From: Clostridia bacterium
GTDB lineage: Bacteria; Bacillota; Clostridia; Christensenellales; CAG-138
Direction: 5' to 3'
Assembly (NCBI GenBank): GCA_017514685.1
Contig: JAFWJN010000036.1
Span: 1 to 50,954, forward strand
DNA: 50,954 bases
Numbering within the stretch: the first letter of the stretch is position 1; the number at the start of each line of letters is the position of its first letter. The notes beneath the pieces were generated by a model, which worked only from the letters and a program-made list of their open reading frames with translations, had not been told where the DNA came from and did not search any database. Below are positions 29,466 to 50,954 of this stretch, one piece after another. The translations under genes and the position numbers were made by a program.

Positions 29466-31640
29466 ATGGAGCAGACCGGTAAAAAAGAACTGTGGCAGGG
29501 CTGGAGAACCGTCCAGCTGCTCGGCCGCGGTGGCTATGGGGAAGTATATGAAGTGGAACGGGACATGGAAGGTCTTGTTCCTGAGAAGGCTGCGGTCAAG
29601 CGGATCCCGATCCCGCAGGACCAAAGAGAAATCGACCGGCTCCGCGCCCGCGGATATCAGGACGAGGAGATTGCGGAATACTATAAAAAACGTCTTCTGG
29701 AAACTCTGAAGGAGTACCGCGTCACAGCGGAACTGAAAGGACATCCGAACATTGTCGGATGTGACGATATCCGCTATGAACAGCAGGCGGACGGCATCGG
29801 ATGGGATGTTTTTGTGAAGATGGAACTGCTGCTTCCGCTTTCAAGAGCAATCGATTCCTTCACCAGGGAAAAACAGGTCGCAAAACTCGGAAAGGATGTC
29901 TTAAGGGCATTGATCCAGTGCGAAAAGAAGGGGATTGCCTGCAGCGGCGTCAAACCGCAGAATATCTTTCTGTCGAAGAGCGGGGACTGTAAACTCGGAG
30001 ACATCGGCATCGCGAAGATGACGGACAGAAAAGGGAAAGAGATCGATGATCCGGATTTTTCCGCTCCGGAAGTTCTGGAAGGCGCTCCGCACAGCAGAAG
30101 ATCGGACATTTATTCGCTCGGCATGGTGCTGTACTGGATGCTCAATGAACGCAGGGTTCCGTTTGTAGTTCTGCCTCCGGAGGTCCCGAACAGCGCGGAC
30201 AGGGAGGAGGCAATCGGCAGAAGGCTTTCGGGAGAACCATTCCCAGACCCGGTGCATGGCAGCGAGGAACTGATAGGGATCGTGCAGAAAGCATGCGCGT
30301 TCCGCCCGGAAGAACGGTATCAGAGCGCGCAGGAGATGCTGGATGATCTGGAGGAATTCACAAAATCAAATGCCGGAGGATGGATCAACGGAGAGAGAAA
30401 TCCCGTAAGGCCGGTACCGATCAGCATTCCGCTTCCAAAGGAGGAGGAAGAAACGGAAGACCAATCTGTCGAGCTGTTTGACAGGGAAGAGGCTGAAGAG
30501 GAAGAAGAAACACCGGAGGAAGAAGAAACGCCGGAGGAGGAAGAGATTGCAGAAAGCGGGTCAAAGCTGAGCGAAAAGCAGCGTGTGCTGCTTATGGTAG
30601 CCGGGGCGATTCTGTTGCTTCTGCTGACAGTGGTCATTGCAAGTCTTACGATATGGTCCTGTTCCAATAAGAAAGATAATATGCCTGTCGTACAGGCGAC
30701 AGAACAGCCGGCAGTGACCGAAGTGCCGACGGATAAACCGGAAGCACCGACGTTAAAGCCGACAGACAAACCGACGACTGAACCGACCAAAGAACCGACC
30801 GCCGCACCTACGGCAACTCCGACACCCGGACCGACCGCTACTCCGAAGACTCCCAAGTATTTCACGTTCGGCGGTCAGCAGATCGCACCCGGTGCAGACA
30901 CGGTTGATATTGCGGGCAAACGGGATGCGAGGATCAAAATCTCCAAGGAGGAGATGGACCAGCTTGTCTATTTCTGCCCCAAACTGAAAAAGCTTTCTCT
31001 GGATTACTGCGATATCGCGGACTGCAGCAGAATCGGGGAACTGACATCGCTGACGGAACTGCTCATCACAACGACAGGAAACATCAACGGCGTGGGAAAA
31101 ATGTCTGACATCAGCTGGGTCCGTTCGCTGACCAAACTCCGGAGAATCAGTTTTGCGCACAATGCCATTTCGGATATCAGCGCGATCGAAGATCTGACCG
31201 GTCTGGAACGGCTGAATCTGGCGGACAACCGACTTGAGAACAGCGATCTGCAGTATCTGTGCAATCTGCAGAGTCTGCAGAACCTGTATCTGTACTCGAA
31301 TACGGAGCTGTCGGATGTCAGCGATCTTGCGGAACTGGAGAACCTCGTTCTGCTGCATCTCGGCGGATGCAGACTGATCGATGATATCAGCATGCTGACG
31401 GATCTGCCGTTCCTGAGAGAAATGAATCTCGGCTATCTGGATAAGCTTTCCTATAGTTATTTCAAGGATTTCAAGACCTTGGATACGCTCTGGCTCCAGG
31501 GGTGCAATGCAAGCCGGGACTACACGGGTCTTGCCGCCTGCAAGAGACTGAAGAAAGTCTACATCTATTCAAACGATACCAAACTGGAAAGTACACTGAA
31601 GAAAGCAATCCCGAAAGTCACCATTACCAAGCAGGGCTGA
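29466..31640 (+). CDS. transmembrane pseudokinase with extracellular leucine-rich repeats
   Basis: 724 residues. Residues 15-300 are a protein-kinase fold with a glycine loop GRGGYG (20-25), Lys 45 (AAVK) and an APE segment (200-202). The HRD motif reads Cys-Ser-Gly (159-161) before VKPQN, so the catalytic Asp is missing, and DFG reads DIG (179-181). An acidic linker is followed by one membrane helix (374-397), a Thr/Pro-rich stalk (410-463) and LRRs (about 470-724; LERLNLADN, LQNLYLYSN). Topology is kinase inside, LRR outside. Loss of the catalytic Asp predicts a scaffold or allosteric receptor; its closest relative here, starting at 50464, keeps HRD. It sits just upstream of the type VII locus. 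The ATG at 29466 follows GGGAGGGGGAAGG. Confidence 0.88.
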   Translation: MEQTGKKELWQGWRTVQLLGRGGYGEVYEVERDMEGLVPEKAAVKRIPIPQDQREIDRLRARGYQDEEIAEYYKKRLLETLKEYRVTAELKGHPNIVGCDDIRYEQQADGIGWDVFVKMELLLPLSRAIDSFTREKQVAKLGKDVLRALIQCEKKGIACSGVKPQNIFLSKSGDCKLGDIGIAKMTDRKGKEIDDPDFSAPEVLEGAPHSRRSDIYSLGMVLYWMLNERRVPFVVLPPEVPNSADREEAIGRRLSGEPFPDPVHGSEELIGIVQKACAFRPEERYQSAQEMLDDLEEFTKSNAGGWINGERNPVRPVPISIPLPKEEEETEDQSVELFDREEAEEEEETPEEEETPEEEEIAESGSKLSEKQRVLLMVAGAILLLLLTVVIASLTIWSCSNKKDNMPVVQATEQPAVTEVPTDKPEAPTLKPTDKPTTEPTKEPTAAPTATPTPGPTATPKTPKYFTFGGQQIAPGADTVDIAGKRDARIKISKEEMDQLVYFCPKLKKLSLDYCDIADCSRIGELTSLTELLITTTGNINGVGKMSDISWVRSLTKLRRISFAHNAISDISAIEDLTGLERLNLADNRLENSDLQYLCNLQSLQNLYLYSNTELSDVSDLAELENLVLLHLGGCRLIDDISMLTDLPFLREMNLGYLDKLSYSYFKDFKTLDTLWLQGCNASRDYTGLAACKRLKKVYIYSNDTKLESTLKKAIPKVTITKQG

Positions 31641-31695
31641 TATCCAAAAGCCGGTCTTAGAGTGCCGGCAGAGAAAAGCATAACAGGAACATAAA

Positions 31696-31738
31696 GGATG
31701 CTCAAAAACCAAACTTACTTTTGAGCATCCCTCTGCTT
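31696..31738 (+). terminator. intrinsic terminator after pseudokinase gene
   Basis: GGATGCTCAAAA at 31696-31707 and TTTTGAGCATCC at 31719-31730, a perfect 12-base stem, then CTCTGCTTTT. Confidence 0.8.
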
Positions 31739-31883
31739 TTATAGGAACGTATGAAATCCGGGGATAATTGTCCTTCAAATTTGTTTCTATGTGCTTTTTT
31801 GTCTACAAGTGATAGCGGATAGCAATAAAGAAAGAATTAATTACACTTTTTCATGGCTCAATATAATATAACGTTTTATCAAC

Positions 31884-31912
31884 TTGCTTTTACATTGTGT
31901 TTATGATACGAT
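31884..31912 (+). promoter_or_regulatory. promoter of type VII secretion operon
   Basis: TTGCTT at 31884-31889 and TACGAT at 31907-31912 with a 17-base spacer. It would give a leader of about 130 bases before the essC start. Confidence 0.6.
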
Positions 31913-32051
31913 GAATTATCAAAACTTCGACAATAATAATTGAAAGTTACAAGGAATGTATTTATAATATCAGTAGTTTCCTAGTGATTGATATGCATGA
32001 TTGCAATCTGTGAACACGATTATATTCGACCGGTTATATGGAGATATTTGA

Positions 32052-35000
32052 ATGGATGAGCGATTACGGGCAGATTTGGACAGCGCAACAAACGAACCGC
32101 CTCAGATGAACATCAGAAATACAAAGGATTTGTTGGGAATACAGGTTACGGTTATCTCATATCGCGGTAATCTGCGTGAAACATACATCCCGATTGATTC
32201 GGATGGCATTCATTATGTCATGGATCAAGACGGAAAAGAACCCCTTTTATCTTTCCAGAAAAAAGATGATACTTGGAGAGCCTTTTGCGGAAAAAAGGTT
32301 TATTTCGTTATCTCCGGAAAAGCAAGCGGTAGCTTATCTGTTCCTTTGTATAATTGCTCGTTATATCATCTTGCAGGACCGGATGGCGGATATTACCTAT
32401 ATGCGGAAGAAGTTAACAAAGAAGCCGGGATTCGGCATAATTATTCTGTGGAGAAATATTGCCACATAACGATTGGGCGTGCTGACGATTGCGGTATTCT
32501 AATCAAGAATGATTATGTGTCGAGGCATCACGCTGAATTGATGTGGGACGAAAAAGGCTGGAGAATCATAGATACAAACAGTACGAATGGAGTATTTGTA
32601 AACGACAATAAGGCTCAGGATTCGTTGTTAAGGTATGGGGACAGCATATTCATTATGGGACTTCGTATTGTTGTCGGATTTGGTTTTATCTCCATCAATG
32701 ACGGCAACAAACGTGCGATAATCCAGTCACCGTATATTCATTCCTTGGAGAGCGAGAAAGACATCGTATATGCTCGGTTGAGCAAAGAAATCGAGAGACC
32801 TAAGGAGTCATATTTTAACAGACTGCCGAGAGAAAGAGAGATAATCAAAGCAGAACCGATCGTTTTCGATAATCCGCCACCGTCGATGAATGGGAATCAG
32901 ATTCCATTTATGCTGAGAATGGGAAGCCCCGCTCTTATGGGGGGAAGAGCTATTGCTACCGGGAATTATTTCATGGCAGCTACAAGCCTGATTATGCCTT
33001 TTCTCACACAAGGATTCTCTGAAAAAGAAAAAAAGGAATATGAAAAACAGAGAACCGAAAAATATGGAGCATACCTGGATGCGAAGAGAGAACAGATAAA
33101 GAACGAATGTATCGAGGAGAAAAGAATCCTAGATAAAACATATCCTGAAACAAGAACTGTAACCTCTTGGCCTGAGATAAAACGACGTTTATGGGAACGA
33201 AGAAATGTAGATGATGATTTTCTCTCAATCAGGATTGGATCCGGTGATACTCCGATGATGTCACAGTACGAATGTGACGAGGAACGTTTCAACATCGAAG
33301 AAGATGAGCTTGAGAAGGAGATGCGCAGCATTACAGCGCAACCCGCATGGCTGAAAAATGTTCCAGTACTGACATCATTAACGAAAGATTTCATCACGGG
33401 CATTCTGGGAGAACGAAGCCGCATTCATGACTTTGTGCTGAATCTGATGACACAGATTGTCATGACACATAGTCCCGATGAAGTGAAAATCATTCTGCTG
33501 TGTGATTCTGCGGAAGCAAAGAGATATGAGCAGTTCCGTTTTCAAAAGCACATGCGGACCGATGATTTTTCTATGCGGTTTTTGGCAACGAATCTTTCTG
33601 AAGCTTCCCGTATCAGTGGATTTTTAGCGGATCAGATTGAAGATAGTATTAATCAGCAGACCGAGCTTAAACTTAAAAAGATTCTCAAGGACAGACCTTA
33701 TTATGTTGTCTTTGCACTGGATAAAAAACTGTTCGACGCTGTTGAGACACTGAAGCATGTCCTGAAGCAGGATGATTCAATTGGAGTATCGATTATTGCG
33801 GGATTCCCTGAATTACCGAAAGAGTGTACAAAAATCTTCCAGCTCGGACTCTCTAAGAATAAGACATTATATATCAAGGAACCCGATCATTTCGAGGAAC
33901 TGTTTACTATCGATCGTATAAGTGAACCGGAAATAACAAAAGCGTTAATGCAAAGTGCAAGCATAAAGATTCCTACGGCTTCTGCTGCATATCTTCTTCC
34001 GAAGACTGTAACATTTCTGGAAATGTTTGGCGTAGGAAAGGTTGAGCATCTGGCTCCCTTGCGTCGATGGGCTGAAAATAACCCTGTCAAATCGCTTGCT
34101 GTTCCGGTTGGTGTCGGAACTGACGGCGAAGTATTCACGCTGGACCTCCATCAAAAACGGCAAGGACCACACGGTCTGGTTGCAGGTACGACCGGTTCCG
34201 GAAAATCCGAGTTTTTAATTACATACATTCTATCCTTGGCAGTGAATTTCTCACCGAACGAAGTCGCTTTTCTTTTGATTGACTATAAAGGAGGCGGTCT
34301 TGCAGGTGCCTTCTATGATGAGCAGCAGGGGCAGTTTTTGCCTCATGTTGTCGGAACGATCACAAATCTTGATGGGTCAGCGATCCAGCGCTCGCTCATC
34401 TCGATCAACGCTGAGCTGAAACGGCGCCAAAGAGTGCTGAACGAGGCAAAAAGTATTACCAACTCCGGTACAATGGATATCTATGATTACCAGAAATTAT
34501 TCCGTGCCGGAAAACTTACGAAACCGATGCCTCATCTGTTTATCATTTCGGATGAGTTTGCAGAATTGAAAGCGCAGCAACCGGAGTTTCTTGCCGAATT
34601 GATCAGTACTGCGCGTATCGGACGAAGCCTGGGCGTTCATTTGATTTTGGCGACGCAGAAACCTGCAGGTGTTGTCAATGACCAAATCGTTTCCAATACC
34701 AAATTCCGGGTTTGCCTGCGTGTTGCGGACAAGTCGGACAGTATGGATATGCTGAAACGACCTGAAGCCAGTGAGATACGTGATACCGGCCGGTTTTACC
34801 TGCAAGTCGGAAACAACGAATACTTTGCTTTAGGCCAGTCAGCTTGGTGCGGTGCGGCCTATGAACCATCGGATGAGCCACCTAAATCGGTTGATGAGAG
34901 TGTATCTGTTATCGATCCAACGGGGCAAGCAGTTCTTACCGTAAAACCTGAACGAAAAAAGACCAAGACAGAGATCAAGCAACTCGTTGCAGTCGTCAAT

Positions 35001-36770
35001 ATGCTTGCGGAAACAGCCGTCCATGAGGGCATCAAGGCAGAGAAACTTTGGATGGAACCGCTGGAGAACAAGATTTCAATTGAAGAACTGGAACAGAGAA
35101 ACAATGATCTGCCGCCTTTTAGTGTGATCGCCGGTGTGATCGATGATCCTGAGCTTCAGACACGGCATACATTGTTTATCAACTTGCTTAAAAGCAAGAA
35201 CATTTTGATTACGGGTGAAAGTGGTTCCGGCAAGACAACGCTCCTCAAGACTATTCTCTACGGAGTCATTAAGAATTATACACCGAAAGAAGTAGCTTTC
35301 TATATCGTCGACCTTTCCGGACGATCGCTGACCGCATTCCGCAACGCACCGCATTGTGGAGCTGCATTGCATGATGAAAACGAATCTGATTTTAGTCGGC
35401 TGCTTTCCATGATGCACGATATTGTCGAAGAGCGGAAAAAAGTATTTGAGAAACTGGGGGTTGCTGACTATGAGTCTTATCTTGCATCGAAGACCCACGC
35501 AGCACAGGAACTGCCTTTGGTCATAGTCGTTATCGACAACTTTGCCGGATTGACTAATTTCAAAAAAGGCAACGATTATCAGTATAGTTTCAATCAGTAT
35601 CTCAAAGAAGGTTTGAGTTATGGTATTCGTTATATCATAACAGCAACGCACAGCAATGAAGTGAATTCGCGTGCAAGACAAGAATTGTCTACAAGGTTTG
35701 CTTTGCAGTTGAAGGATAAATATGAATATGGAGATGCGCTGAATGTTCGTTGTTCATATACTCCTCCATTGGTACCGGGGCGCGGTCTGTGTATCTATAA
35801 CGAAGCACCTCTGGAGTTCCATGCTGCAATGCTGAGACCTGATGATACTGCAAAAGAAAGCAATGCGTTGATTCAGAGGATCGGCTCAGAACTTGCAAGC
35901 CGGTATACCGCTGAGGAATTCGCAGCAGAGCTCCCGGTCGTACAGGAAGAGCAGGAATTTGAACAATTCTGCAATGGTATTCCACACGGACGCATTCCAC
36001 TTGGCTATTCCATGAAAGATGCGAAGAAGATATCCATTCCCTTAAAGCAGGCAGGATTTTTATCAGTTTACTTTGGAAATGTGGACGGCAAGAAAAAGAT
36101 TTTGCAGAATTTTCTCTATGCTTTCGCAAGAGAACGAGGAAAAGTTCTCTTCTTATCACCGGAAAAAGGAAGTGTTGTTGATTCATCGGAAAGCGGCTTG
36201 AAAGATTATCCATATGTCAATCAGGTGCTTATATGCAAAGAAGGCGAAGGGAAAAACATTATAGCATCATTGGCTAAAGTGATAGAAGAAAGAAAGCCAA
36301 TCCGTAATCGCTTCTGCGAGGAACATGGATTGGAAAAAACTGCGCTTTCATCACTCATAGCAGCGGAAGATATGATTCGGAAAGAAACAGAGCCGTTGTT
36401 CGTGCTGATTGAGAATTTTGTAGCGTTTGCAAATTGCCTGAAGGGACAGGAAAACGTTATGAAAACGATATTTGAAATAGCACGGTATTATAATATTCTA
36501 TTTGTCGCAGGCTTTGATCCGGAGGATACCGGAAAACTTTTCGCGAATGCTTTGCTTAATTCCTTCAATCCGGATCAAAACATCCTTTTGCTCGGCGGAA
36601 AAATGGACAAACAGAACCTTATTTCGCTTGACTTCAAGAGTGTGATTAAAGATGTATTACCGAAATTCGGACGCGGATTGATGGGATATCGGGGAAAAAC
36701 ATATTCGATTACAATGCCCTGCGGACCGGAAAAGAATGATGTTTCGGAAGAAGACGCGTCGATCTTTTGA
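32052..36770 (+). CDS. essC: EssC-type type VII secretion ATPase with FHA domain
   Basis: 1572 residues, the usual EssC length. An FHA-like region (about 25-120) precedes a well-conserved FHA domain (about 138-205) with IGRADD (Gly 142, Arg 143), VSRHHAEL and TNSTNGVFVN, which keeps the residues that bind phosphothreonine. Short hydrophobic segments lie at about 290-320, then three FtsK/SpoIIIE ATPase domains: Walker A GTTGSGKS at 712-719, GESGSGKT at 1055-1062, and a degenerate third site (FGNVDGKKK). EssC is the membrane motor that exports WXG100 and LXG proteins in Bacillota. The first gene of a six-gene run; GGAG lies eight bases before the ATG. EssA, EssB and EsaA are not encoded in the window. 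Confidence 0.95.
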   Translation: MDERLRADLDSATNEPPQMNIRNTKDLLGIQVTVISYRGNLRETYIPIDSDGIHYVMDQDGKEPLLSFQKKDDTWRAFCGKKVYFVISGKASGSLSVPLYNCSLYHLAGPDGGYYLYAEEVNKEAGIRHNYSVEKYCHITIGRADDCGILIKNDYVSRHHAELMWDEKGWRIIDTNSTNGVFVNDNKAQDSLLRYGDSIFIMGLRIVVGFGFISINDGNKRAIIQSPYIHSLESEKDIVYARLSKEIERPKESYFNRLPREREIIKAEPIVFDNPPPSMNGNQIPFMLRMGSPALMGGRAIATGNYFMAATSLIMPFLTQGFSEKEKKEYEKQRTEKYGAYLDAKREQIKNECIEEKRILDKTYPETRTVTSWPEIKRRLWERRNVDDDFLSIRIGSGDTPMMSQYECDEERFNIEEDELEKEMRSITAQPAWLKNVPVLTSLTKDFITGILGERSRIHDFVLNLMTQIVMTHSPDEVKIILLCDSAEAKRYEQFRFQKHMRTDDFSMRFLATNLSEASRISGFLADQIEDSINQQTELKLKKILKDRPYYVVFALDKKLFDAVETLKHVLKQDDSIGVSIIAGFPELPKECTKIFQLGLSKNKTLYIKEPDHFEELFTIDRISEPEITKALMQSASIKIPTASAAYLLPKTVTFLEMFGVGKVEHLAPLRRWAENNPVKSLAVPVGVGTDGEVFTLDLHQKRQGPHGLVAGTTGSGKSEFLITYILSLAVNFSPNEVAFLLIDYKGGGLAGAFYDEQQGQFLPHVVGTITNLDGSAIQRSLISINAELKRRQRVLNEAKSITNSGTMDIYDYQKLFRAGKLTKPMPHLFIISDEFAELKAQQPEFLAELISTARIGRSLGVHLILATQKPAGVVNDQIVSNTKFRVCLRVADKSDSMDMLKRPEASEIRDTGRFYLQVGNNEYFALGQSAWCGAAYEPSDEPPKSVDESVSVIDPTGQAVLTVKPERKKTKTEIKQLVAVVNMLAETAVHEGIKAEKLWMEPLENKISIEELEQRNNDLPPFSVIAGVIDDPELQTRHTLFINLLKSKNILITGESGSGKTTLLKTILYGVIKNYTPKEVAFYIVDLSGRSLTAFRNAPHCGAALHDENESDFSRLLSMMHDIVEERKKVFEKLGVADYESYLASKTHAAQELPLVIVVIDNFAGLTNFKKGNDYQYSFNQYLKEGLSYGIRYIITATHSNEVNSRARQELSTRFALQLKDKYEYGDALNVRCSYTPPLVPGRGLCIYNEAPLEFHAAMLRPDDTAKESNALIQRIGSELASRYTAEEFAAELPVVQEEQEFEQFCNGIPHGRIPLGYSMKDAKKISIPLKQAGFLSVYFGNVDGKKKILQNFLYAFARERGKVLFLSPEKGSVVDSSESGLKDYPYVNQVLICKEGEGKNIIASLAKVIEERKPIRNRFCEEHGLEKTALSSLIAAEDMIRKETEPLFVLIENFVAFANCLKGQENVMKTIFEIARYYNILFVAGFDPEDTGKLFANALLNSFNPDQNILLLGGKMDKQNLISLDFKSVIKDVLPKFGRGLMGYRGKTYSITMPCGPEKNDVSEEDASIF

Positions 36771-36787
36771 GAAAGTGAGAGACAGAT

Positions 36788-37042
36788 ATGAACAATAAAG
36801 TATGCGTCATAGTGGAAACTCCTGCGTTGAGAAGAGAGGATGATATGTTGCTTCCGGACTATGTTCCAATCCAGATACTGCAAAAGCTGATTGCCGATGC
36901 AGTCAAGGATGTTTCCGACGGAGCGTTCGTTCCTACAGGAAAAGAACTTCTTTGCAGACGTGAGGACGGTATTATTCTGCATCCGCAGTATACGCTTGCA
37001 GATTATAAGACTACGGATGGTATGCATCTGATGCTGTTTTAG
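36788..37042 (+). CDS. esaB: YukD/EsaB-like ubiquitin-fold protein
   Basis: 84 residues with a ubiquitin-like beta-grasp pattern: an opening strand VCVIVETP, a central helix IQILQKLIADAV, and a closing LADYKTTDGMHLMLF that matches the family's end. YukD/EsaB is a core cytoplasmic accessory of Bacillota type VII systems, always near EssC. It lies 17 bases after essC with a weak AGTGAGAG site. Similarity is structural and positional rather than strong in sequence. Confidence 0.75.
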   Translation: MNNKVCVIVETPALRREDDMLLPDYVPIQILQKLIADAVKDVSDGAFVPTGKELLCRREDGIILHPQYTLADYKTTDGMHLMLF

Positions 37043-37050
37043 GAGGCAAC

Positions 37051-37275: not shown

Positions 37276-37301
37276 AAAAATAATCGGAGGTAAAGAAAAG
37301 A

Positions 37302-37604
37302 ATGGGACAAACAGTTGATATGGATCTCAATGCTGCAAGAGCATGGAAAGATTCGATTGATTCGCTGAATTCTCAGTTGAAAGGCGAGTTGGTTTCAGTT
37401 GGCGACAGTATCAATGCAATCAGCCAGTCTTCGCAAGGTGGTGTTTTAGATCATCTTGTCAACAATTATCAGCAGATGACTGAAGCAACGGGTAATTTGG
37501 TTAATGCGTTTGCAGGCCTTGTTGACAGCGTCGCAAATGTCATTGAGAAAGCTACCGGCTTGGCTGGTAAAGTCATTGATATACTTGGAATCATTAAGCT
37601 ATAA
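37302..37604 (+). CDS. WXG100-like small protein
   Basis: 100 residues, the typical WXG100 length. Two helices (about 8-40 and 50-100) flank a Ser/Gly-rich turn SQSSQGGVLDHL, with one Trp in the first helix (ARAWKDSID) rather than in the turn. It has a hydrophobic C-terminal helix ending GKVIDILGIIKL. Start with TCGGAGG. A probable secreted substrate of EssC, by position and fold. Confidence 0.7.
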   Translation: MGQTVDMDLNAARAWKDSIDSLNSQLKGELVSVGDSINAISQSSQGGVLDHLVNNYQQMTEATGNLVNAFAGLVDSVANVIEKATGLAGKVIDILGIIKL

Positions 37605-37618
37605 AAGGAGTGACGAAA

Positions 37619-37954: not shown

Positions 37955-37956
37955 CA

Positions 37957-42490: not shown

Positions 42491-43323
42491 TCGCTACCTC
42501 CGATCAGTACGAGCGTATAGCTGTACAGTTCAGGATGCGAGTGAAGACCCGATGCGGCGGATTGCGTCAGTTCAATTTGCTTAAGCCTGGGAAGCAGTTT
42601 CAGATCTTCGAAATTTGACGGAAGCATATCACCTAAAAAAGTCAGAGTGATTATCGTTTCCAGCCGCTCTTCACTGAGAGCTCCGCCGCCGAGTGAAGCA
42701 CGCACGACTTCCCGGAGAGTTTCGTTCTGAAAAGTGACGGAGTCTTCTTCCACAGGAGGAATATATGCCTTCGAAACGGTAAACCATAGGCAGATGCCGA
42801 TGAGCAGAAGCAGCGCAAGGCCTCCCATAGTCCATGAAGCAATGCGCAGGCCGTCCGCGGGGACCTTTTGCGGATGACCAATCAATGTCTGGGAAAAACC
42901 GTCCGTTCTTAAAATTTCTGCTTCATATTCGGCTGCACGGTCAGAGCTTGAACAGATATATTCAGGTGTGTTAGGATATAATCCTATTGATAATCCGCTG
43001 TCCTTACCATCTGTATTCAGACAAAAAAGAGGATGACCGGATCTTTGACAGATAAGCAGACTATTTTTTGCTTTGTGATCATGACGGAACAAATCAGTCA
43101 GAAAAACTACAGTCAAAGCAGCGTTTCTCATTCTGTTAGTCCGAAAAGCAATTGCTTCGCGATCTGCTTTTTCAGAGCAGTCATACCATACGCGCACGCC
43201 GCGTGAATATAACTTTCTCAGTAATGGGCGTACATGACCTCCGTCTGCCTCTGAAAAGCACAGATGCAGATATGGTTCATTGCCCATATAGGGCGGATAC
43301 TGTTTGTCGGGCCGGTATGCCAT
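42487..43323 (-). CDS. TIR-like transmembrane protein with short LRR-like tail
   Basis: 278 residues from the ATG at 43323, with GAGGACG upstream; earlier starts lack a ribosome site. Residues 15-110 match the TIR pattern (YLHLCFSEADGGHVRPLL, VRVWYDCSEKADREAIAF, LTVVFLTDLF), but the catalytic Glu position is Asn (about 87). One membrane helix at 162-183 and about 95 residues outside with an LRR-like segment (LLPRLKQIELTQS). First gene of the TIR operon. With only the middle gene keeping the catalytic Glu, the operon may encode one active and two regulatory TIR subunits. Confidence 0.78.
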   Translation of the reverse strand: MAYRPDKQYPPYMGNEPYLHLCFSEADGGHVRPLLRKLYSRGVRVWYDCSEKADREAIAFRTNRMRNAALTVVFLTDLFRHDHKAKNSLLICQRSGHPLFCLNTDGKDSGLSIGLYPNTPEYICSSSDRAAEYEAEILRTDGFSQTLIGHPQKVPADGLRIASWTMGGLALLLLIGICLWFTVSKAYIPPVEEDSVTFQNETLREVVRASLGGGALSEERLETIITLTFLGDMLPSNFEDLKLLPRLKQIELTQSAASGLHSHPELYSYTLVLIGGSE

Positions 43324-43365
43324 GGTTCGTCCTCGAAGATGATAAGCTGACATTCTACAAAATAA

Positions 43366-43394
43366 AGAATACTCTAAATCAGGACTTCTTGCAA
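43366..43394 (-). promoter_or_regulatory. promoter of the TIR operon
   Basis: On the minus strand TTGCAA (43389-43394) and TATTCT (43366-43371) with a 17-base spacer, 43 bases upstream of the ATG. Confidence 0.6.
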
Positions 43395-43410
43395 CCATGG
43401 GAGCAAATTT

Positions 43411-43452
43411 AAAAAGAAACTATCAATAATCATGTTTACATTATTGATAGTT
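43411..43452 (-). terminator. terminator of LRR-kinase gene
   Basis: AACTATCAATAAT (43418-43430) and ATTATTGATAGTT (43440-43452) form a perfect 13-base stem. On the minus strand it is followed by TCTTTTT. Confidence 0.85.
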
Positions 43453-43484
43453 CCTTTAGAATTGCATATTATCTCAGTCAACTA

Positions 43485-43929
43485 CTACCAGTAAAAAATT
43501 TGACACCCCGGCAAGTTAGCCTTGAGTTTTTCAATTTGATTCTGAGACAGGTTATTATGACTAATAAAAAGAAGAACGTAATTTTGACAATCCATTCAGT
43601 GCAGTGGTATCACTAATTTGATTGTATTTAAGAACAAGGTCCTGCAAATTAGTCAATCCACGCAATGCGGAAATATTGCTGATTTGATTGTTGCCAAGGG
43701 AAAGCGAGGTCAGATTGGTCAACCCGCTCAATGAAGTAATATTGCTGATTTGATTGTTGTTAAGGTAAAGTGAGGTCAGATTGGTCAACCCGCTCAATGA
43801 AGTAATATTGCTAATTTGATTGTTGTTAAGGTAAAGTGAGGTCAGATTAGTCAATCCGCGCAATGCAGAAATATTGCTGATTTGATTGTTGTCAAGGTAA
43901 AGCCAGGTCAGATCAGTCAACCCGCTCAA
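43485..43929 (-). pseudogene. severed 3' part of the LRR receptor kinase gene
   Basis: Directly beyond the stop of the kinase gene the same frame continues for 122 codons of the same 22-residue LRRs. A second lesion, one extra base in a run of five T (plus-strand A run 43566-43570), shifts the frame. Past it, the native C-terminus reads FISHNNLSQNQIEKL then KANLPGCQIFYW and stops at 43485-43487. Removing one T restores the exact 22-residue spacing between the last LRR asparagines. Repaired, the protein would have about 907 residues. Confidence 0.85.
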
Positions 43930-44500
43930 TTAAGTAATATTGCTGATTTGATTGTTGTCAAGGTTAAGCCAGGTTAGGTTCGTTAACCCGCTCAAAGCCT
44001 GAATGTCATTGATTTGATTGTTGTAAAGGGTAAGCCGGGTTAGGTTCGTCAACCCGCTCAAAGCCTGAATGTCATTGATTTGATTGTTGTCAAGGTCAAG
44101 CCAGGTTAGGTTCGTCAACCCGCGCAATGCAGAAATATTGCTGATTTGATTGTTGTCAAGGTAAAGCCAGGTCAGATCAGTCAACCCGCTCAATGAAGTA
44201 ATATTGCTGATTTGATTGTTGTCAAGGTTAAGCCCTAGCAGGTTTGTCAACCCGCTCAATGAAGTAATATTGCTGATTTGATTGTTGTCAAGGTTAAGCC
44301 AGGTTAGGTTCGTCAACCCGCTCAAAGCCTGAATGTCATTGATTTGATTGTTGCTAAGATAAAGATATTCTAGACTTTTCAACCCGCTCAAGGACTGGAT
44401 GTCACTGATTTGATTGCTGCTAAGATAAAGATATTCTAGACTTTTCAACCCGCTCAAGGACTGGATGTCACTGATTTGATTATTGCCAAGAAAAAGCGTG
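43616..44500 (-). repeat. tandem 66-base LRR-coding repeats
   Basis: About 13-14 units of 66 bases, each encoding a 22-residue LRR of the form LSGLTNLTxLxLxNNQIxNI. Several neighbouring units differ by only a few bases, which points to recent duplication and gene conversion. Units fall into SNIT, SNIS and NDIQ subtypes that alternate in blocks. Confidence 0.9.
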
Positions 44501-46209
44501 GTCAGATTGTGAAACTGTGCGATATCTGAGATATCTGTTAATTCGCACTTTGAAAGATCTAATCTCTGTATATTTAGGATATCCGATTGATATATCGTGC
44601 CGGTGAAACCATACTTGGCTCGGAATGCATTTTCAAATGTTGCATTTTGAAATACTGCGGTAGGCCTCGGCGTTGGAGTTGACTTCGGCGTTGGTGTTGG
44701 TTCAGGTGAGTGTTCGACGGTTTCTGCTACTTCCACTGTCGTGACTTCGGGTGAAATGAATGGCAGGACTTCTGTCGGTACGGATGTCAGCTGGACTTCC
44801 AACTGATTAGCAGACTTGTTCTTTCCTCCAAGCACACCAATCACGATGCCTGCAATAGTAATAACAAGAATCGCAGTCAACGCAATCAAAAATATTTTTT
44901 TCTTTCGATTAGCGTCTGCAACATTCCTGCTTAAAGCTTGCTGTTCAGTTTTTTCATCATGATTCGAACTGCTTTTCGATATTGCCTTTGCTTTATCTTC
45001 TTCTGGTTCAGGCTTTTTGATCTCTTCTTTCTTGGAAAATAAATATAACGTGGACTCTATGTCTTGCTTTGTGTGCGGGTCAGCTTTACGTGAAAGTATT
45101 CCGCTCGGTGGCTCATTGCTAACAGGAGTCTCCTTTTCAGTTTGAACACCTGCTTCGCATATCGTTTGATCGAAATCTTTGGGTGAATTCTCCTGAACGA
45201 AACAGATTTCGTCGGATTGCTTTTTTTCTGCATATGAAAAAGTATGTGATCTGGATGAAAACAGGCTGGAAGGCGTTTCAGCTTTATTTTGATTTGCAGT
45301 TATGCATTCCAGATCATGGCGCATCTCCGAAGGGGACGCATAACGATCCGTCGAATCAAATGCACAAGCTTTTAGAATGATTTGCTTCAGTTTGTCGCTG
45401 CCATTCTTCGGTGCGGGAAGCGGTTCGCCATGCATACGAAGATCCAAAGCATCAGAATTCTGACTTGGTTTCGGCACCGTTGGAGGCAAAGGAACAAATG
45501 GTCCTCTGCGCTCGTTCAGCATCCAGTACATGACCATGCCGAGAGAATAAATGTCCACGGAAGCATTATAAGGCTTTCCCCAATAAACCTCAGGAGCCAT
45601 GTAACCATAGGTTCCGGTTTTGGTTGCTTTTGTGGTATGATCAGCAGTTTTAGCAATACCAAAGTCCCCGAGTTTATAATCTCCTTCTTCATTGACAAAG
45701 ATATTCTGCGGCTTAATATCCCGATGAAGAATGTTATGCCGCATACAGCGTTCCAACGCATTGCAGATATCCAGACCGACCTTTATCACTGCACATTCAT
45801 CAGAACGGATTTCCTCATGCCGTTCCAGATACTTTGGCAGCGATGTCAGCAGTTCCATCCGGATATAGATATCATATCCGGGATCCGATTCGTGCTGTAT
45901 AATTGCATGATCTTCATAACTGACGATATTGCTGTTCCCTTTGAGTTTGCTCATCAGAGCAAATTCGGAAGTAATATCTTCCAACTGACTGCGGAAAAGT
46001 TCTGTCAAGCTCAAGTCGTCATATCCGTCATCACGGTACTGCTCAAGAGCTTCTGCTGATTCCGGAATAGAAATGACTTTTATCGCTGAGTGTGCTACTC
46101 TGCCATATCCGTCATCTTTTTCAACTTCATATACAATGCCAAAACTTCCTTTGCCAATCATGCGGACAATCTTCCATCCGGGAAGCAGATATTTTATATT
46201 ATCGTCCAT
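43930..46209 (-). CDS. Ser/Thr receptor kinase with LRRs, prematurely ended
   Basis: 759 residues as read. The kinase domain (12-300) has GKGSFG, Lys 44, HRD at 162-164, DFG at 182-184 and an APE segment, so it should be active. A Ser/Lys/Glu-rich cytoplasmic linker, a membrane helix (439-460), a Thr/Pro stalk with PEPTPTPKSTPTPRPT and 22-residue LRRs from about 545 follow. The gene ends inside an LRR (NQISNIT) at a TAA where all sister repeats have TCA, so one base change truncates it. The LRR part is presumed outside the cell. Its kinase is very similar to that at 46866-49202. A ribosome site (AGGAG) precedes the ATG at 46209. Confidence 0.88.
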   Translation of the reverse strand: MDDNIKYLLPGWKIVRMIGKGSFGIVYEVEKDDGYGRVAHSAIKVISIPESAEALEQYRDDGYDDLSLTELFRSQLEDITSEFALMSKLKGNSNIVSYEDHAIIQHESDPGYDIYIRMELLTSLPKYLERHEEIRSDECAVIKVGLDICNALERCMRHNILHRDIKPQNIFVNEEGDYKLGDFGIAKTADHTTKATKTGTYGYMAPEVYWGKPYNASVDIYSLGMVMYWMLNERRGPFVPLPPTVPKPSQNSDALDLRMHGEPLPAPKNGSDKLKQIILKACAFDSTDRYASPSEMRHDLECITANQNKAETPSSLFSSRSHTFSYAEKKQSDEICFVQENSPKDFDQTICEAGVQTEKETPVSNEPPSGILSRKADPHTKQDIESTLYLFSKKEEIKKPEPEEDKAKAISKSSSNHDEKTEQQALSRNVADANRKKKIFLIALTAILVITIAGIVIGVLGGKNKSANQLEVQLTSVPTEVLPFISPEVTTVEVAETVEHSPEPTPTPKSTPTPRPTAVFQNATFENAFRAKYGFTGTIYQSDILNIQRLDLSKCELTDISDIAQFHNLTTLFLGNNQISDIQSLSGLKSLEYLYLSSNQISDIQSLSGLKSLEYLYLSNNQINDIQALSGLTNLTWLNLDNNQISNITSLSGLTNLLGLNLDNNQISNITSLSGLTDLTWLYLDNNQISNISALRGLTNLTWLDLDNNQINDIQALSGLTNLTRLTLYNNQINDIQALSGLTNLTWLNLDNNQISNIT

Positions 46210-46865
46210 ACTTTACAGATTTCTCCTCTGTCAATCAGTTTGAATAGATAGCCATTGAGCTATTACGTCAGAACTGTAGTTCCTGTAAAACATCGAATAT
46301 TTTGACTGATACTGATTCGTTTCAGTCTAAATAAATTGAGGCAGACGTTCAAGAAGATATCAGTCAACTCAGCATAGAAAATACATACAATGTCCAAACC
46401 TAATGCTGAGTTTTGCGACAGAACATCAGGGTACATAATTCAGTTCAATTTTCAAGAAGCTCTTTGAGCTGCTTTTTGCAATCATATAAATCAAGAAACT
46501 GGTTTTAAAACCGGTAACCATGATTTAATGGTCGAATGATGAAACCCAGACTGAATACTGATTAATCATAACATGCTATACATAATAGCGTCAACATTTT
46601 CAGCTTTTTCAGAATATAACGACTGGGTCCAAAGCACAGATAAATTTCACAAGATAATAAGACAAAAGTGTTAAAATGAATTCAAACAATACCAATCTTA
46701 TCAATCACTGTCGCTGAATCCATATAATTGATAGTTTTATATGCCATAAACGCAGGAACTCCACTGCCCGGGAGCAGTGGAGTTCAAATCATCTGTCAAC
46801 TAATAGTCTCAATAAATTGCTTAATCTGAACGTATGAAGTTTCCTCATAATGAATGCATAGAAAC
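46210..46865 (-). other. 656-base intergenic region with long leader
   Basis: Contains the LRR-kinase promoter at its centre and a perfect 12-base hairpin, GAACTCCACTGC / GCAGTGGAGTTC at 46756-46785, about 80 bases downstream of the WSxWS kinase (probable terminator). Between promoter and kinase start is a leader of about 350 bases without a clear gene; short minus-strand frames there carry stops in every frame. Confidence 0.5.
46565..46594 (-). promoter_or_regulatory. promoter of LRR-kinase gene
   Basis: On the minus strand TTGACG (46589-46594) and TATGAT (46565-46570) with an 18-base spacer. The -10 region GCATGTTATGAT recurs at the PP2C promoter (GCATGTTATGAT, 50058-50069), so the two operons share a promoter type. 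Confidence 0.7.
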
Positions 46866-49202
46866 TTATTTTTTGTAACGATATAAGGTTTGGGTTTCTA
46901 CCTGTCGGGTGGCGGAAGAACTGACTGCGGTATCACTCCATGCAGACCAGCTGCTCCATTGATAGAAAGTATATACGTATGAAATGGACCTTGAACGCCA
47001 CTGATCCTTGATATAACTGGACGAACTTGGCGTGCCGTCCATATCAGCGGAATTGAAGTACCATAAATTTCCCCCAATGGTTACTTTCCGCTTACCGCCG
47101 GGGCTTGAACTGCTGCCGAGCGAAGAGTAAGGGGTTGTTTGCCAGAGGGTCTTATGAGAACTCTTCGGAGTGCTGTGCTTGCCACAACTGTAGCAGGGAT
47201 GGCCACCGTTTCCTTCATCGTACCAGGGCATATGGTATCCGCACTTTGAGCATGCATAGTAATACAGACGGTATACTCTGCGTTTTTCAACCTGCAGAGT
47301 GCTTGAGGCGGAAATAGAATCATTGCTCCAACTGGACCAGTCACCGTAAACGGTATCAGGACCGCTTTGCAGTGTCCAGCCGCTGAGGGAACTGCTTGAG
47401 GAAGTAGTAGTGGATTTATCCCTGTAGCGGTATTGTGTCTTTGTTTCGGTTGCGATTGCACCTGCAGGAGGAAGGTTGGTGCTCCAGCCTGACCAGGTCG
47501 GTTCCGGCGTCGCAGTTGGTTTGGCAGTTGGTTTGTTGGTTGGTTTGGCGGTTGGTTTGGCGGTTGGCTTCTTGGTTGGAGCCGGCGTCGATGTTGGCTC
47601 GGGGGTTGGAGTATCCGTCGGCAAGGGAGTTTCTTCCGGCGCGGAAACGGGTTCCAAAGTAGGTTCTTCAGTTGGGATCGCTGTAATTTCCGGAGCGGAA
47701 GTTACTTTCGGAGTAGATGTCGAAACGGGAGAAGCAGTAGTGTCAACAACTGTAACAGCCGCCTGCTTGTTCTTACAGCTGCAATTCCTCCAGAAAATCA
47801 GAATCAGGACGACGATAATAACCAAAAGCAAACTTAATCCCAGCAGGATATACCTGAGAAGCGTTGGCTTCGTTTTTTTGCTTGGCTCAGTACCGGAGTC
47901 TGCTTTCTTGGCTACAGTTGAATCAATTGATACAACCTTCGCCTCTTCTTTCGCATGGGAAGCTTTTTTTGCACTCTTTTTTTCAGAATTGTCAATGCTG
48001 ATCGTTCGATTTTCATCATGTGAGTCAGAAGAGACCTTCACAGTGCCTGATGCATCTGCTGATTCAAACTGATGCTTGACGGTTTTATTAATAATGGGTT
48101 CGACATCGGAAGCATCTGTAGCAGAGGCTTCGTTCGCAAACTGATTATCAGTTGGTTGCTCAACAATAGCAGCTGCAGCACTGGCTTCATCGTGGAGCAT
48201 GCTCGGATGAACTGTTGCCTCAAAATCTGGCTCTGAAACCGGAACGACAGGAACAATCGGAATGACTGAGGCAAAGGACGAACCGGACAAAAACGCTTCC
48301 AGAGCATGTTTCAACTCGGTCGGAGTAGCATAGCGCTCCTTTGGATTAAAAGCGCAAGCTTTCAGAATGATTTGTTTCAGTTCGTCGCTGCCGTTCTTCG
48401 GCGCGGGAAGAGGTTCGCCGTGCATACGAAGTTCTAATGCTTCTGAATTCTGGCTGGGCTTCGGGATCGCCGGAGGTAAGGGGACAAACGGACCTCTGCG
48501 CTCGTTCAGCATCCAGTACATGACCATGCCGAGAGAATAAATATCGACAGTAGCATTATACGGTCTGGAAAGATACACTTCAGGAGCCATATAACCATAA
48601 GTCCCGGTTTTGGTGGCTTTTGTGGTGTGGTCTGAAGTTTTTGCGATGCCAAAGTCTCCGAGTTTGAAATCCCCGTTATCATTTACAAAGATATTCTGCG
48701 GCTTGATATCGCGGTGTATGATATGATGCTTTGCACATAGTTCCAGAGCATTGCAGATATCGATACCAAGTTGCGCTACACATTGATCCGAAAGATTGTT
48801 TCCGGGATAATGCTGATTGATATAATCGGGCAAGGGCGTCAGCAGTTCCATCCGGATATAGATATCATACCCGGGATCCGATTCATGCTGAACAATTGCA
48901 TGATCTTCATAACTGACAATATTGCTGTTGCCTTTGAGTTTGCTCATTAAAGCAAATTCAGAGGTAATATCTTCCACCTGACTGCGGAACAGCGCAGTAA
49001 GGCTCATGTCGTCATATCCATCATCTCGATATGCTTTGATTTCTGCGCCTGTTTCAGGTATAGAGAGTACTTTCAGCGCTGAATGTGCCACTGTCCCGAA
49101 GTCGTCTTCTTTTTCAACTTCATATACAGCGCCAAAGCTTCCTCTGCCAATCATTCGGACAATCTTCCATCCGGGAAGCAGAGATTTAACCTTTTCTTCC
49201 AT
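46866..49202 (-). CDS. Ser/Thr receptor kinase with extracellular WSxWS repeats
   Basis: 778 residues. Intact kinase domain (12-300): GRGSFG, Lys 44, HRD at 163-165, DFG at 183-185, TYGYMAPE. A long Ala/Ser/Glu linker, a membrane helix (448-471) and a Thr/Pro/Lys stalk (about 495-568) follow. The outside domain (570-778) holds three WSxWS-type motifs at about 570-573, 622-626 and 749-756, each near a basic (R/K)xxYR strand, and a four-Cys zinc-ribbon-like knot (Cys 651, 654, 670, 673). The WSxWS pattern is like thrombospondin type 1 repeats, which bind glycans or proteins. It follows the PP2C gene by 21 bases in one operon. Confidence 0.9.
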   Translation of the reverse strand: MEEKVKSLLPGWKIVRMIGRGSFGAVYEVEKEDDFGTVAHSALKVLSIPETGAEIKAYRDDGYDDMSLTALFRSQVEDITSEFALMSKLKGNSNIVSYEDHAIVQHESDPGYDIYIRMELLTPLPDYINQHYPGNNLSDQCVAQLGIDICNALELCAKHHIIHRDIKPQNIFVNDNGDFKLGDFGIAKTSDHTTKATKTGTYGYMAPEVYLSRPYNATVDIYSLGMVMYWMLNERRGPFVPLPPAIPKPSQNSEALELRMHGEPLPAPKNGSDELKQIILKACAFNPKERYATPTELKHALEAFLSGSSFASVIPIVPVVPVSEPDFEATVHPSMLHDEASAAAAIVEQPTDNQFANEASATDASDVEPIINKTVKHQFESADASGTVKVSSDSHDENRTISIDNSEKKSAKKASHAKEEAKVVSIDSTVAKKADSGTEPSKKTKPTLLRYILLGLSLLLVIIVVLILIFWRNCSCKNKQAAVTVVDTTASPVSTSTPKVTSAPEITAIPTEEPTLEPVSAPEETPLPTDTPTPEPTSTPAPTKKPTAKPTAKPTNKPTAKPTATPEPTWSGWSTNLPPAGAIATETKTQYRYRDKSTTTSSSSSLSGWTLQSGPDTVYGDWSSWSNDSISASSTLQVEKRRVYRLYYYACSKCGYHMPWYDEGNGGHPCYSCGKHSTPKSSHKTLWQTTPYSSLGSSSSPGGKRKVTIGGNLWYFNSADMDGTPSSSSYIKDQWRSRSISYVYTFYQWSSWSAWSDTAVSSSATRQVETQTLYRYKK

Positions 49203-49223
49203 GTTGCTATTATTTTCCCCCTG

Positions 49224-49985
49224 TTAATCGATTCGAACGGCAATAACTGTTATATTGTCATGCCCGCCATTTTTTAATGCTTCTGAAATCAAATGCTGAA
49301 CACATTGCTTAATGCTGATATGCTGCCGAAGAATCATGCAGATGTCAACGTTCGAAACCATGTCGGTCAACCCATCGCTGCAAATCAAAAAAACATCTCC
49401 ACGCTTGATATCGCACTTTACAATATGCGGTTCAAGAGATAATTCATCTTCCGGAACGCCAAGATACTGCGTTAATCCGGCTTTTCTTTTAAAGTTTTCC
49501 GGGGCATGTTCCGTGTCATCTGTAGATACCTGAGAAAAAGCATCATCGCGAAGACGATAAATGCGACTGTCACCAAGGTTGCATGCGTAGACTTCATCAG
49601 GAACAAACAACAGCATAGCGGCGGTTGTTCCCATCCTGCTGACGAGCAGATCTTTTTGCTGCTCACAGACCGCATGGTTGGCTTCGTTGCAGAACTGATT
49701 TAAGAATGATCTTGGACCGATAGCAAACTGCTTGCTTAGATTTGCTTTTTCTTTTGCTGTTTTCGCAGCGGTATAAGAAGCTTTTTCACCATATTCTTCG
49801 CCACCCATGCCATCGAAAACAGCATACAAAGCATCGCATTCCAAATTGCTTTTTTTTACAATACAGCCATTTAGCCCGGAATTGACCTCAGGAAGAAATC
49901 GTCCGTCAAAATAAAAATTATCCTCGTTATTTCTACGAAGACGTCCAATGCTGCATCCACATGCAGCGGATAGTTGAAAAAGCAT
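49224..49985 (-). CDS. stp: PP2C-family protein phosphatase
   Basis: 253 residues with the full bacterial PP2C motif set: RNNEDNF, FDGMGGEEYGE, GTTAAMLL, NLGDSRIYR, CSDGLTD and GGHDNITVI, whose Asp residues bind the two or three metal ions. PP2C phosphatases remove phosphate from Ser/Thr and are the usual antagonists of bacterial eukaryote-like kinases. It sits first in the operon with the WSxWS kinase and could serve the four kinases and the FHA-EssC protein. Its ribosome site (AAGGAAGAG) is about 14 bases from the ATG, further than usual. Confidence 0.93.
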   Translation of the reverse strand: MLFQLSAACGCSIGRLRRNNEDNFYFDGRFLPEVNSGLNGCIVKKSNLECDALYAVFDGMGGEEYGEKASYTAAKTAKEKANLSKQFAIGPRSFLNQFCNEANHAVCEQQKDLLVSRMGTTAAMLLFVPDEVYACNLGDSRIYRLRDDAFSQVSTDDTEHAPENFKRKAGLTQYLGVPEDELSLEPHIVKCDIKRGDVFLICSDGLTDMVSNVDICMILRQHISIKQCVQHLISEALKNGGHDNITVIAVRID

Positions 49986-50057
49986 AGTGTTATATTACTC
50001 TTCCTTTTATATAGATGCATTTTTATATGGTGATAGATAAAAACCCAATACTAATTT

Positions 50058-50086
50058 ATCATAACATGCAGCAATTATATCGTCAA
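50058..50086 (-). promoter_or_regulatory. promoter of PP2C-kinase operon
   Basis: On the minus strand TTGACG (50081-50086) and TATGAT (50058-50063) with a 17-base spacer, 73 bases upstream of the PP2C start. Confidence 0.75.
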
Positions 50087-50091
50087 TAATT

Positions 50092-50130
50092 TATAAGGTT
50101 GTAAACTTATAAAGTTGTAGAAACCTTATA
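50092..50130. promoter_or_regulatory. inverted repeat upstream of PP2C promoter
   Basis: TATAAGGTT at 50092-50100 and AACCTTATA at 50122-50130 are a perfect 9-base inverted repeat, with two GTTGTA copies between the arms. It lies just upstream of the -35 box, an activator-type position. Confidence 0.5.
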
Positions 50131-50463
50131 TATGTTCGTAACCGTACGTTCAGTAAATACAGGCATATTGTACTTGATGCAAAGAGGCATATACGATATA
50201 CTAAATAGTTAGAATTATATTCATTTTATATTGTGCAATTTAAATTATATGATAGTAGGTATAATAATCTTTGACTATAGATTTATGGTGAATCGGTAAT
50301 CGCGTATTGAGCAATGATAGGCGCGAGCATATATAAGATTTTAGCATGACAACGATAATATGGAAGAGTAGAGATTTTCAGGGATTAATCCCAGAATTGC
50401 TCAGCAAAGTTACAAACTGAGTGGAAAAGATAATATCAAGTTGAGATATAGACAGGTGATAAG

Positions 50464-50954
50464 ATGAGCAAGACAGTTTGGCCGGGATGGAAAACTATAG
50501 GCATGATTGGGCGCGGCGGATTTGGTGAAGTCTATGAGGTGGAAAGAGATGTTGCCGGTCTGGAAAAAGCAGCAGTAAAACGAATTTCCATTCCTCAGGA
50601 TAGCGGAGAGATTGAGGAACTGTATGCCAGCGGTTGTGATGACGTCAGTTTGCAGAAGCATTTCAACGATTATCTCCAGGAGTTTCTGAAGGAATACCGG
50701 CTGATGGCAGATCTGAAAGGAAATACCAATATTGTCAGCTGTGATGACGTCCGGTATGAGCAGCATGACGATGGAATCGGATGGGATATCTATATTCGGA
50801 TGGAACTTCTGATTCCGCTCATGAAAGTCCTGGATCATATCGATACAGAGGAGCAGGTCATAAAAGTAGGGCGCGATATATGCAACGCGCTGGTCCTGTG
50901 CAGAAGCCGGAATATCGTTCATCGCGATATCAAACCGCAGAACATCTTTGTTTC
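50464..50954 (+). CDS. Ser/Thr protein kinase, partial (runs off the window)
   Basis: 163 codons from the ATG at 50464 to the window edge. The kinase N-lobe has GRGGFGEVYEV and the AAVKRI lysine (about 40), and the catalytic loop IVHRDIKPQNIF is intact just before the edge. It is the closest relative of the pseudokinase at 29466-31640 (same GLEKAAVKRI, PQD, EEL, GIGWD and MELL blocks) but retains the HRD Asp. A membrane helix and extracellular domain are expected downstream. A weak AGGTGAT site precedes the ATG. Confidence 0.9.
   Translation, partial: MSKTVWPGWKTIGMIGRGGFGEVYEVERDVAGLEKAAVKRISIPQDSGEIEELYASGCDDVSLQKHFNDYLQEFLKEYRLMADLKGNTNIVSCDDVRYEQHDDGIGWDIYIRMELLIPLMKVLDHIDTEEQVIKVGRDICNALVLCRSRNIVHRDIKPQNIFV

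Follow-up and report, generated by a model that had tools for sequence, protein, structure and literature searches.

Type VII secretion systems (T7SS) of the subtypes T7SSc-j are described as carrying kinases, phosphatases and in some cases conserved phosphothreonine motifs, and phospho-regulation of such systems has already been suggested there (Garrett, Higginson, Palmer 2024; PMC11217815). Among TIR-based systems, Thoeris combines the TIR protein ThsB with the SLOG effector ThsA; in addition, SLATT is characterised as a membrane effector that occurs with TIR and is predicted to respond to nucleotides (PMC9503650, PMC7159879), and phage RyR-domain enzymes are reported to cleave TIR-made cyclic ADP-ribose (preprint PMC13232231). 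Here we analysed the whole contig JAFWJN010000036.1 of a Clostridia bacterium (the window, 50,954 bp; contig C5 of genome G000, a draft of 61 contigs that is 82.6% complete), of which an initial annotation had read 21 kb as a single signalling island, with kinases acting on the secretion motor EssC and TIR proteins forming a parallel arm. This observation was largely right, whereas its interpretation as a single circuit was not; most probably, the stretch holds two adjacent but independent systems of membrane sensing, namely a T7SS variant with a kinase array and a separate operon of three TIR-type genes, here called A, B and C. The kinase-EssC half is a variant of described systems, in which the array of kinases with exchanged ectodomains and a predicted pseudokinase beside EssC are new, and the TIR half is the more novel part.

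The TIR operon is made up of three genes:

42487..43398, - strand: cassette gene A, TIR-like domain lacking the catalytic Glu, then a membrane helix (TM 190-208); hhalign to the B family 98.6%, E 5.7e-16
41336..42490, - strand: cassette gene B, TIR domain with Glu, membrane helix (TM 156-174), Pro/Thr stalk and leucine-rich repeats (LRR); TIR_2 4.7e-14, LRR_4 1.8e-10
38549..41311, - strand: cassette gene C, TIR-like domain lacking the catalytic Glu, membrane helix (TM 125-143) and a long LRR; hhalign to the B family 94.3%, E 9.7e-8

The initial annotation had counted all three as TIR proteins with a membrane segment, which holds fully for B, since B passed the Pfam TIR model, whereas A remained under the cut-off (0.0051) and C gave no match. 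Similarly, a TIR profile built without the window's sequences found B at 5e-15, gave A an E value of 1.6 and did not find C, and adding 41336 to the profile brought A to 0.042; TIR-type domains in A and C were supported only when profiles of their homologues were compared with that of the B family. Glu83 of B, which we take to be the position of the TIR NADase glutamate, was invariant in 19 of 19 aligned copies, and the profile alignments show no such Glu in A and C. The 4-bp overlap between genes A and B marks A-B-C as an operon, judged by layout. One membrane helix was predicted in each protein, and the charge bias pointed to an inner TIR in A and C, and did so only weakly in B (+1 on the side of the TIR and 0 on that of the LRR); the LRR of B is probably outside the cell. 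The TIR of B matched the solved Cat1 TIR (5e-6) and its LRR matched internalins, while AlphaFold2 models from single sequences were of low confidence (mean predicted local distance difference test scores of 49 and 45). Viral contigs gave 10 weak matches to B, the best at 24% identity, and PADLOC returned generic kinase matches, a weak ThsB match (2.3e-5) and chance-level matches of a small protein.

In relatives, A-B-C occurs together with two further genes, D, encoding an HD-RyR protein, and E, encoding a SLOG-SLATT-like protein. Counting only full-length or near-full-length copies (at E <=1e-5, 68 of the 103 family genomes match, many by LRR or TIR alone), B was found in 21 of 103 family genomes including the window's; the other 20 copies were 38-64% identical, with that of G002 cut by a contig end, and three more family genomes held a looser homologue. 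When the B profile was run across the class, 39 of 391 genomes gave matches, and besides the window's copy no single match spanned the profile, each being confined to the TIR or to the LRR part. Of 20 loci fetched for B, 19 hold a true B and one (G895) a looser homologue; A accompanied B in all 19 and C in 18, the exception (G014) lying at a contig end. B-C-D-E were contiguous in 11 of the 20 fetched loci, with D and E downstream of C, and in G026 D stood before A. Family-wide, E was present in 27 and D in 26 of the 103 genomes, and B and E were associated both in the family (20 genomes with both, 1 with B only, 7 with E only and 75 with neither; p 1.7e-14, relatedness being ignored) and inside the genus (23 genomes: 11, 1, 2 and 9, respectively; p 6e-4). 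The HD-type motif of D was present in all 19 aligned copies, which had been collected by that motif, and its C-terminal RyR domain passed Pfam in the four short forms scanned but was under the cut-off in three of five long forms and unreported in the other two. For E, sub-threshold SLOG matches (PF10686) were obtained in three of five scanned copies, and each of the five matched DUF4231, though G034 alone exceeded the cut-off (28.6 vs 24.7); the window genome's own E scored 23.5 bits for DUF4231 and gave no SLOG match. We take DUF4231 to be SLATT-type, a name reportedly introduced in a study of 2015.

As in Thoeris, a Glu-bearing TIR is paired in genomes with a SLOG-type partner, but here the TIR sits on a membrane protein with LRR, two Glu-less TIR partners are present, and an HD-RyR gene is added; no ThsA (SIR2-SLOG or macro) was matched as the partner of the TIR gene, since E has SLOG-type and DUF4231 matches only. 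The architecture of B is probably that of a Toll-like receptor, in that a single membrane helix separates the LRR from the TIR as in the animal receptors; however, its N-to-C order is reversed, its Glu is kept and its partners are bacterial, and the likeness is one of architecture, with no descent claimed. D shares the RyR domain with the phage enzyme RyDEP, which according to PMC13232231 cleaves 2'/3'cADPR made by TIRs, but D is bacterial, is fused to an HD-type domain and co-occurs with TIR genes instead of countering them. Within the literature searched (mostly outside subscription journals), no report of the cassette or of a bacterial TIR-LRR receptor was matched. The statement of the initial annotation that it knew of no described system with the full set was too strong for the kinase half, given the subtypes with kinase, phosphatase and phosphothreonine-competent FHA outlined in PMC11217815.

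B and EssC did not go together. EssC over the model cut-off was absent in 13 of the 14 B genomes searched (out of the 21 with full-length B), and across the 49 family genomes searched for both no association was found (p = 1). Conversely, no TIR_2 match was present near EssC in 32 of 33 EssC genomes, of which 18 have one elsewhere and some have short contigs, and a TIR profile found none in any of 79 named EssC loci with flanks of up to 10 kb. We therefore rejected the TIR genes as part of the secretion system, and the parallel TIR arm of the initial annotation was not supported when judged by the refuting condition that the annotation itself had named, whereas kinases and/or PP2C were kept beside EssC in 39 of the 79 named loci. 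A fully integrated island, in which kinases and TIR proteins control the same motor, could appeal to the adjacency on this contig, where A-B-C sits between EssC and the kinase operon, to the similar stalks and to the LRRs of B and of kinases 43930 and 29466, which are about 30-35% identical; these LRRs are, however, of the common internalin type, the promoter common to the PP2C and kinase genes was not found before the TIR operon, and in relatives A-B-C keeps company with D and E, so that we regard such an island as highly improbable. A misplacement of the trio by chimeric or mis-binned assembly would fit the draft state of the genome and the finding that in no other of the 33 genomes searched does TIR_2 lie near EssC, but the trio is flanked by EssC and kinase genes on a single unbroken contig and the nearest relative of B (64%) comes from the same genus, which makes an artefact improbable as well.

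Some other TIR genes were seen during these searches. The TIR array on contig C15 of the window's genome was rejected as a relative of A-B-C; by eye, it consists of zinc-ribbon/TPR/TIR proteins near an integrase (L129, 6389-16342, three such proteins, one with a DUF6273-like outer domain like the kinases of contig C50 described below). In L050 (G059, contig C33, 8783-10543) a single open reading frame (ORF) encodes a TIR domain followed by an FtsK-like domain, and L147-L148 (G313, contig C26) holds a group of several TIR proteins reminiscent of conflict islands, along with a large, divergent protein with a kinase domain and a gene that looks PP2C-like by eye. Upstream of the island, the window encodes an ADP-ribosylglycohydrolase at 25408-26211 (PF03747, 7.1e-36).

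The secretion and kinase genes of the window are the following:

29466..31640, + strand: predicted pseudokinase, one membrane helix (TM 374-392), Pro/Thr stalk and LRR, directly upstream of EssC; Pkinase 2e-26, LRR_4 8.4e-18
32052..36770, + strand: EssC/TsxC motor ATPase with N-terminal FHA; TIGR03928 924 bits (cut-off 778), FtsK_SpoIIIE in two stretches, one Pfam FHA at 5.9e-16
32466..32648, + strand: FHA domain of EssC (Pfam FHA, amino acids 139-199), with all four scored phosphothreonine-site residues, RSHN
36788..37042, + strand: YukD/EsaB-like ubiquitin-fold protein; PF08817 7.7e-8
37302..37604, + strand: small helical protein, possibly WXG100-like; related only weakly by phmmer to small ORFs of other EssC loci (best 2e-4)
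37610..37954, + strand: small helical protein conserved beside EssC; a profile seeded with the window's protein, L151 and L175 finds L153, L154, L156 and L206
37957..38262, + strand: second small helical protein conserved beside EssC; a profile built from this protein, L151 and L175 finds L167 at 2e-9
43561..46209, - strand: Ser/Thr kinase, membrane helix and LRR array of 66-bp repeats; Pkinase 1.2e-37, HRD/DFG intact, split by an in-frame stop into 43930-46209 and 43561-43929
46565..46594, - strand: promoter-like site upstream of LRR kinase 43930
46866..49202, - strand: Ser/Thr kinase, membrane helix and WSxWS-type ectodomain; Pkinase 1.4e-37, HRD/DFG intact
49224..49985, - strand: PP2C phosphatase; PF00481 1.1e-17, Stp1/IreP model 156 bits, under its 230-bit cut-off
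50058..50086, - strand: promoter-like site upstream of the PP2C gene, resembling that at 46565..46594
50464..50952, + strand: start of a further kinase cut by the contig end at 50954; Pkinase 1.1e-13, HRD intact

The matches to TIGR03928, over its cut-off, and to Pfam confirmed what the initial annotation had seen here, namely an EssC locus with the FtsK-type ATPase EssC/EccC of T7SS, one PP2C and kinases, one of them partial. Likewise, the shared use of LRRs was borne out by Pfam in 29466, 38549, 41336 and 43930, and related promoters were confirmed only for kinase 43930 and PP2C (79% identical over 47 bp, E 1.6e-5, with TTGACG and TATGAT in both) and not found upstream of the TIR genes. All four kinase genes are receptor-like, but one is interrupted and another is a predicted pseudokinase. 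In 29466 the alignment shows HRD replaced by CSG while K, the alphaC Glu, N and D(IG) are retained, and the protein is predicted to be catalytically dead; the Asp of HRD was absent in two of 50 aligned kinase rows, this one and the divergent G127 29095, one fragment not being judgeable. Kinase 43930 meets an in-frame stop inside its repeat array, and its frame continues to 43561. This array (43648-44497) comprises about 12 copies of the 66-bp LRR unit that are about 84-85% alike, with one in-frame stop, and looks recently expanded. The ectodomain of kinase 46866 is 35% identical over 128 amino acids to one in the relative G039.

The kinase array probably continues onto contig C50, whose end overlaps that of C5 by exactly 18 bp and encodes, in frame, the remainder of a kinase, followed by a second PP2C and three more kinases; the join is only probable because the overlap sits in a catalytic-loop stretch that paralogues may share. 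The outer parts of the first C50 kinase are presumably peptidoglycan-binding-like and DUF6273-like, and two of the three further kinases presumably have DUF6273-like outer domains, that of the third being unassigned. Eight of the nine kinase-domain matches in the genome are on C5 and C50, and two of these eight may represent the halves of a single gene. WXG100 proteins were not matched by Pfam at the locus, including 37302..37604, and the NCBIfam model ESAT6_2 gave 0.042, far under its cut-off; the small helical neighbours are conserved, two of the three small proteins after YukD having counterparts in other EssC loci.

With T7SSe, T7SSd and T7SSj, as described in PMC11217815, the window has in common an EssC-type ATPase with a phosphothreonine-competent FHA and a membrane kinase, and with T7SSe and T7SSj also the YukD-like protein and a PPM phosphatase. 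Of the T7SSe features, the ATPase FHA with its phosphothreonine site (RSHN), a kinase (TseD) and a PPM phosphatase (TseF) were found, whereas no separate, TseJ-like FHA protein besides EssC was present among the ORFs of C5 and 18 kb of C50. Since the window fits T7SSe in part only, we call it a variant, which moreover differs from all three subtypes in its tandem kinase array, varied ectodomains and pseudokinase beside EssC. The T7SSb of S. aureus and B. subtilis shares the EssC motor, YukD and a membrane pseudokinase next to EssC with the window, but there the pseudokinase is EssB, and a search with PF10140 gave no EssB/YukC match in the window's genome, so that EssB was rejected. The pseudokinase of the window is a member of the ordinary kinase family and bears an LRR, and the FHA of the window's EssC retains the phosphothreonine site, which the T7SSb EssC lacks according to PMC11217815. 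Two of the 33 EssC genomes (G442 and G318) had EssB over the cut-off, and their EssC loci were without kinase or PP2C.

EssC above the cut-off was rare near the window's genome (3 of 81 relatives), and at E <=1e-100 the searches of the class and of the phylum found it in 31 of 391 and 19 of 398 genomes, respectively. The other two EssC-bearing relatives, G008 and G039, each have EssC, one PP2C and four or five receptor-like kinases in a row with differing outer domains, and in L167 (Lachnospiraceae UBA3692) EssC is immediately preceded by a kinase gene, the same arrangement as in the window, and there are three more kinases. Beside the EssC locus of G039, L046 encodes at 13115-15664 a membrane protein with, by eye, a P-loop NTPase-like part and a DUF6273-like C-terminus. 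We scored the FHA site by four residues (R, S/T, H, N), at least three of which had to be present for the site to count as intact, in two sets of loci: 50 EssC loci from relatives, class and phylum, with kinase and PP2C judged in the fetched DNA (EssC-profile matches in G035 and G059 were judged not to be EssC and left out, and where EssC was split, in G376, G666 and G299, the second piece was merged or skipped), and 79 named loci, the distinct ones among the best 80 of 529 candidates by similarity to the window's EssC. Kinase and/or PP2C were present in 20 loci of the first set, and 14 of these 20 had an intact site compared to 5 of the 30 without (Fisher p 2.5e-4), the contig ending within 2 kb downstream of EssC in three of these five. 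In the second set, the site was intact in 38 of 39 loci with kinase and/or PP2C and in 10 of 40 without (p 5e-12). Judged from sequence, receptor kinases, PP2C and the FHA-bearing EssC are one conserved neighbourhood, which is the part of the proposed single island that stood once the TIR trio had been removed.

One might instead regard the kinase array as a general surface-sensing cluster that merely neighbours EssC and has other proteins as clients. G031, of the same family, indeed has such a cluster without EssC over the cut-off in its genome (L150, contig C5 of that genome, 1-20000), with five kinases, two PP2C and at least one FHA protein, the outer domains of the kinases being, by eye, WSxWS, RCC1-like and LRR. 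However, these kinases are, by eye, of another subfamily with a zinc-ribbon N-terminus, FHA integrity tracks the kinase/PP2C genes, and the EssC FHA is the only reader found in the stretches searched of C5, C50 (18 kb), G008 and G039, because an FHA profile run on their ORFs detected no separate FHA protein; a general cluster is hence unlikely, though less so than the integrated island or the assembly artefact.

The existence of a kinase-PP2C-FHA island without EssC also weighs against a tight link between kinases and EssC, and the following points weigh against our reading of two independent systems, one of them a kinase-controlled T7SS. Relatedness inflates the FHA counts, and phylogenetic independence is short of significance: independent pairs on the EssC tree numbered 3 for, 0 opposite and 5 undecided in the first set (p 0.25), and 3-4 for, 0 opposite and 8-9 undecided among the 129 loci (p 0.125). 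These pairs use the assessable subsets (39 of 50, 58 of 79 and 97 of 129 loci), which lean towards association because all kinase/PP2C loci were kept and short-flank loci without kinase were dropped, whereas the counts above use the full sets. Moreover, the EssC FHA scored 0 or 1 in six of the 20 kinase/PP2C loci of the first set (G124, G732, G633, G389a, G389b and G424); a separate FHA protein is near all six, but also near the kinase-free G762, G259, G105 and G458. For the cassette, the genus-level p values reduce but do not remove the effect of relatedness that the family-wide ones ignore, and D, E and A-B-C also occur apart in some relatives, partly through contig ends. The window's own A-B-C is without adjacent D or E; the genome's E (46% identical) sits by itself on C41, and a search at 1e-20 did not find D in this genome, which is 82.6% complete. 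The cassette may be incomplete here, or D may be in the missing part. Finally, in the window's genome alone, A-B-C may have a physical or regulatory link with the kinase island.

For the secretion half, with its genes, intact FHA site and conserved neighbourhood, the sequence suggests a mechanism in which outer ligands would switch the array kinases on or off, and phosphothreonine on a kinase tail or a partner would dock on the EssC FHA and control assembly or activity of the motor. PP2C would reset the phosphorylation state, and the pseudokinase beside EssC may act non-enzymatically, as a scaffold or docking protein.

For the cassette, with its conservation, gene order, co-occurrence and the Glu of B, the mechanism we infer would have the outer LRRs sense a surface ligand or damage, upon which the inner TIR of B would make a nucleotide derived from nicotinamide adenine dinucleotide (NAD), with A and C as inactive partners. 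Protein E would answer this signal by permeabilising the membrane, and D would break it down or buffer it; these roles of receptor, messenger, pore and off-switch are assigned because of the SLATT reports (PMC9503650, PMC7159879) and the RyDEP report (PMC13232231). B probably feeds an NAD-derived signal, and phage defence is a plausible function of the cassette. We only tentatively propose, as a possibility that we hold to be somewhat doubtful, the complete scheme of a bacterial counterpart to Toll-like receptors in Clostridia of this family, in which a catalytic TIR-TM-LRR protein with two Glu-less partners would respond to an external cue and produce an NAD-derived messenger, a SLOG-SLATT pore would open and an HD-RyR enzyme would be the off-switch; in the window's genome, the receptor operon would have been placed inside a T7SS island driven by the kinase array, two outside-in LRR pathways that differ in their inner outputs thus sharing one locus.

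In conclusion, the FHA comparison over 129 loci is a quantitative, phylogenetically not decisive test of the published idea of a phospho-gated T7SS, and it points to loci where kinase array, phosphatase and FHA reader form a compact experimental set. If the proposed scheme for the cassette is true, bacteria would use the architecture of Toll-like receptors with an enzymatic TIR, and the origin of LRR-TIR receptors as well as the outside-in triggering of NAD-based defence would become directly testable.

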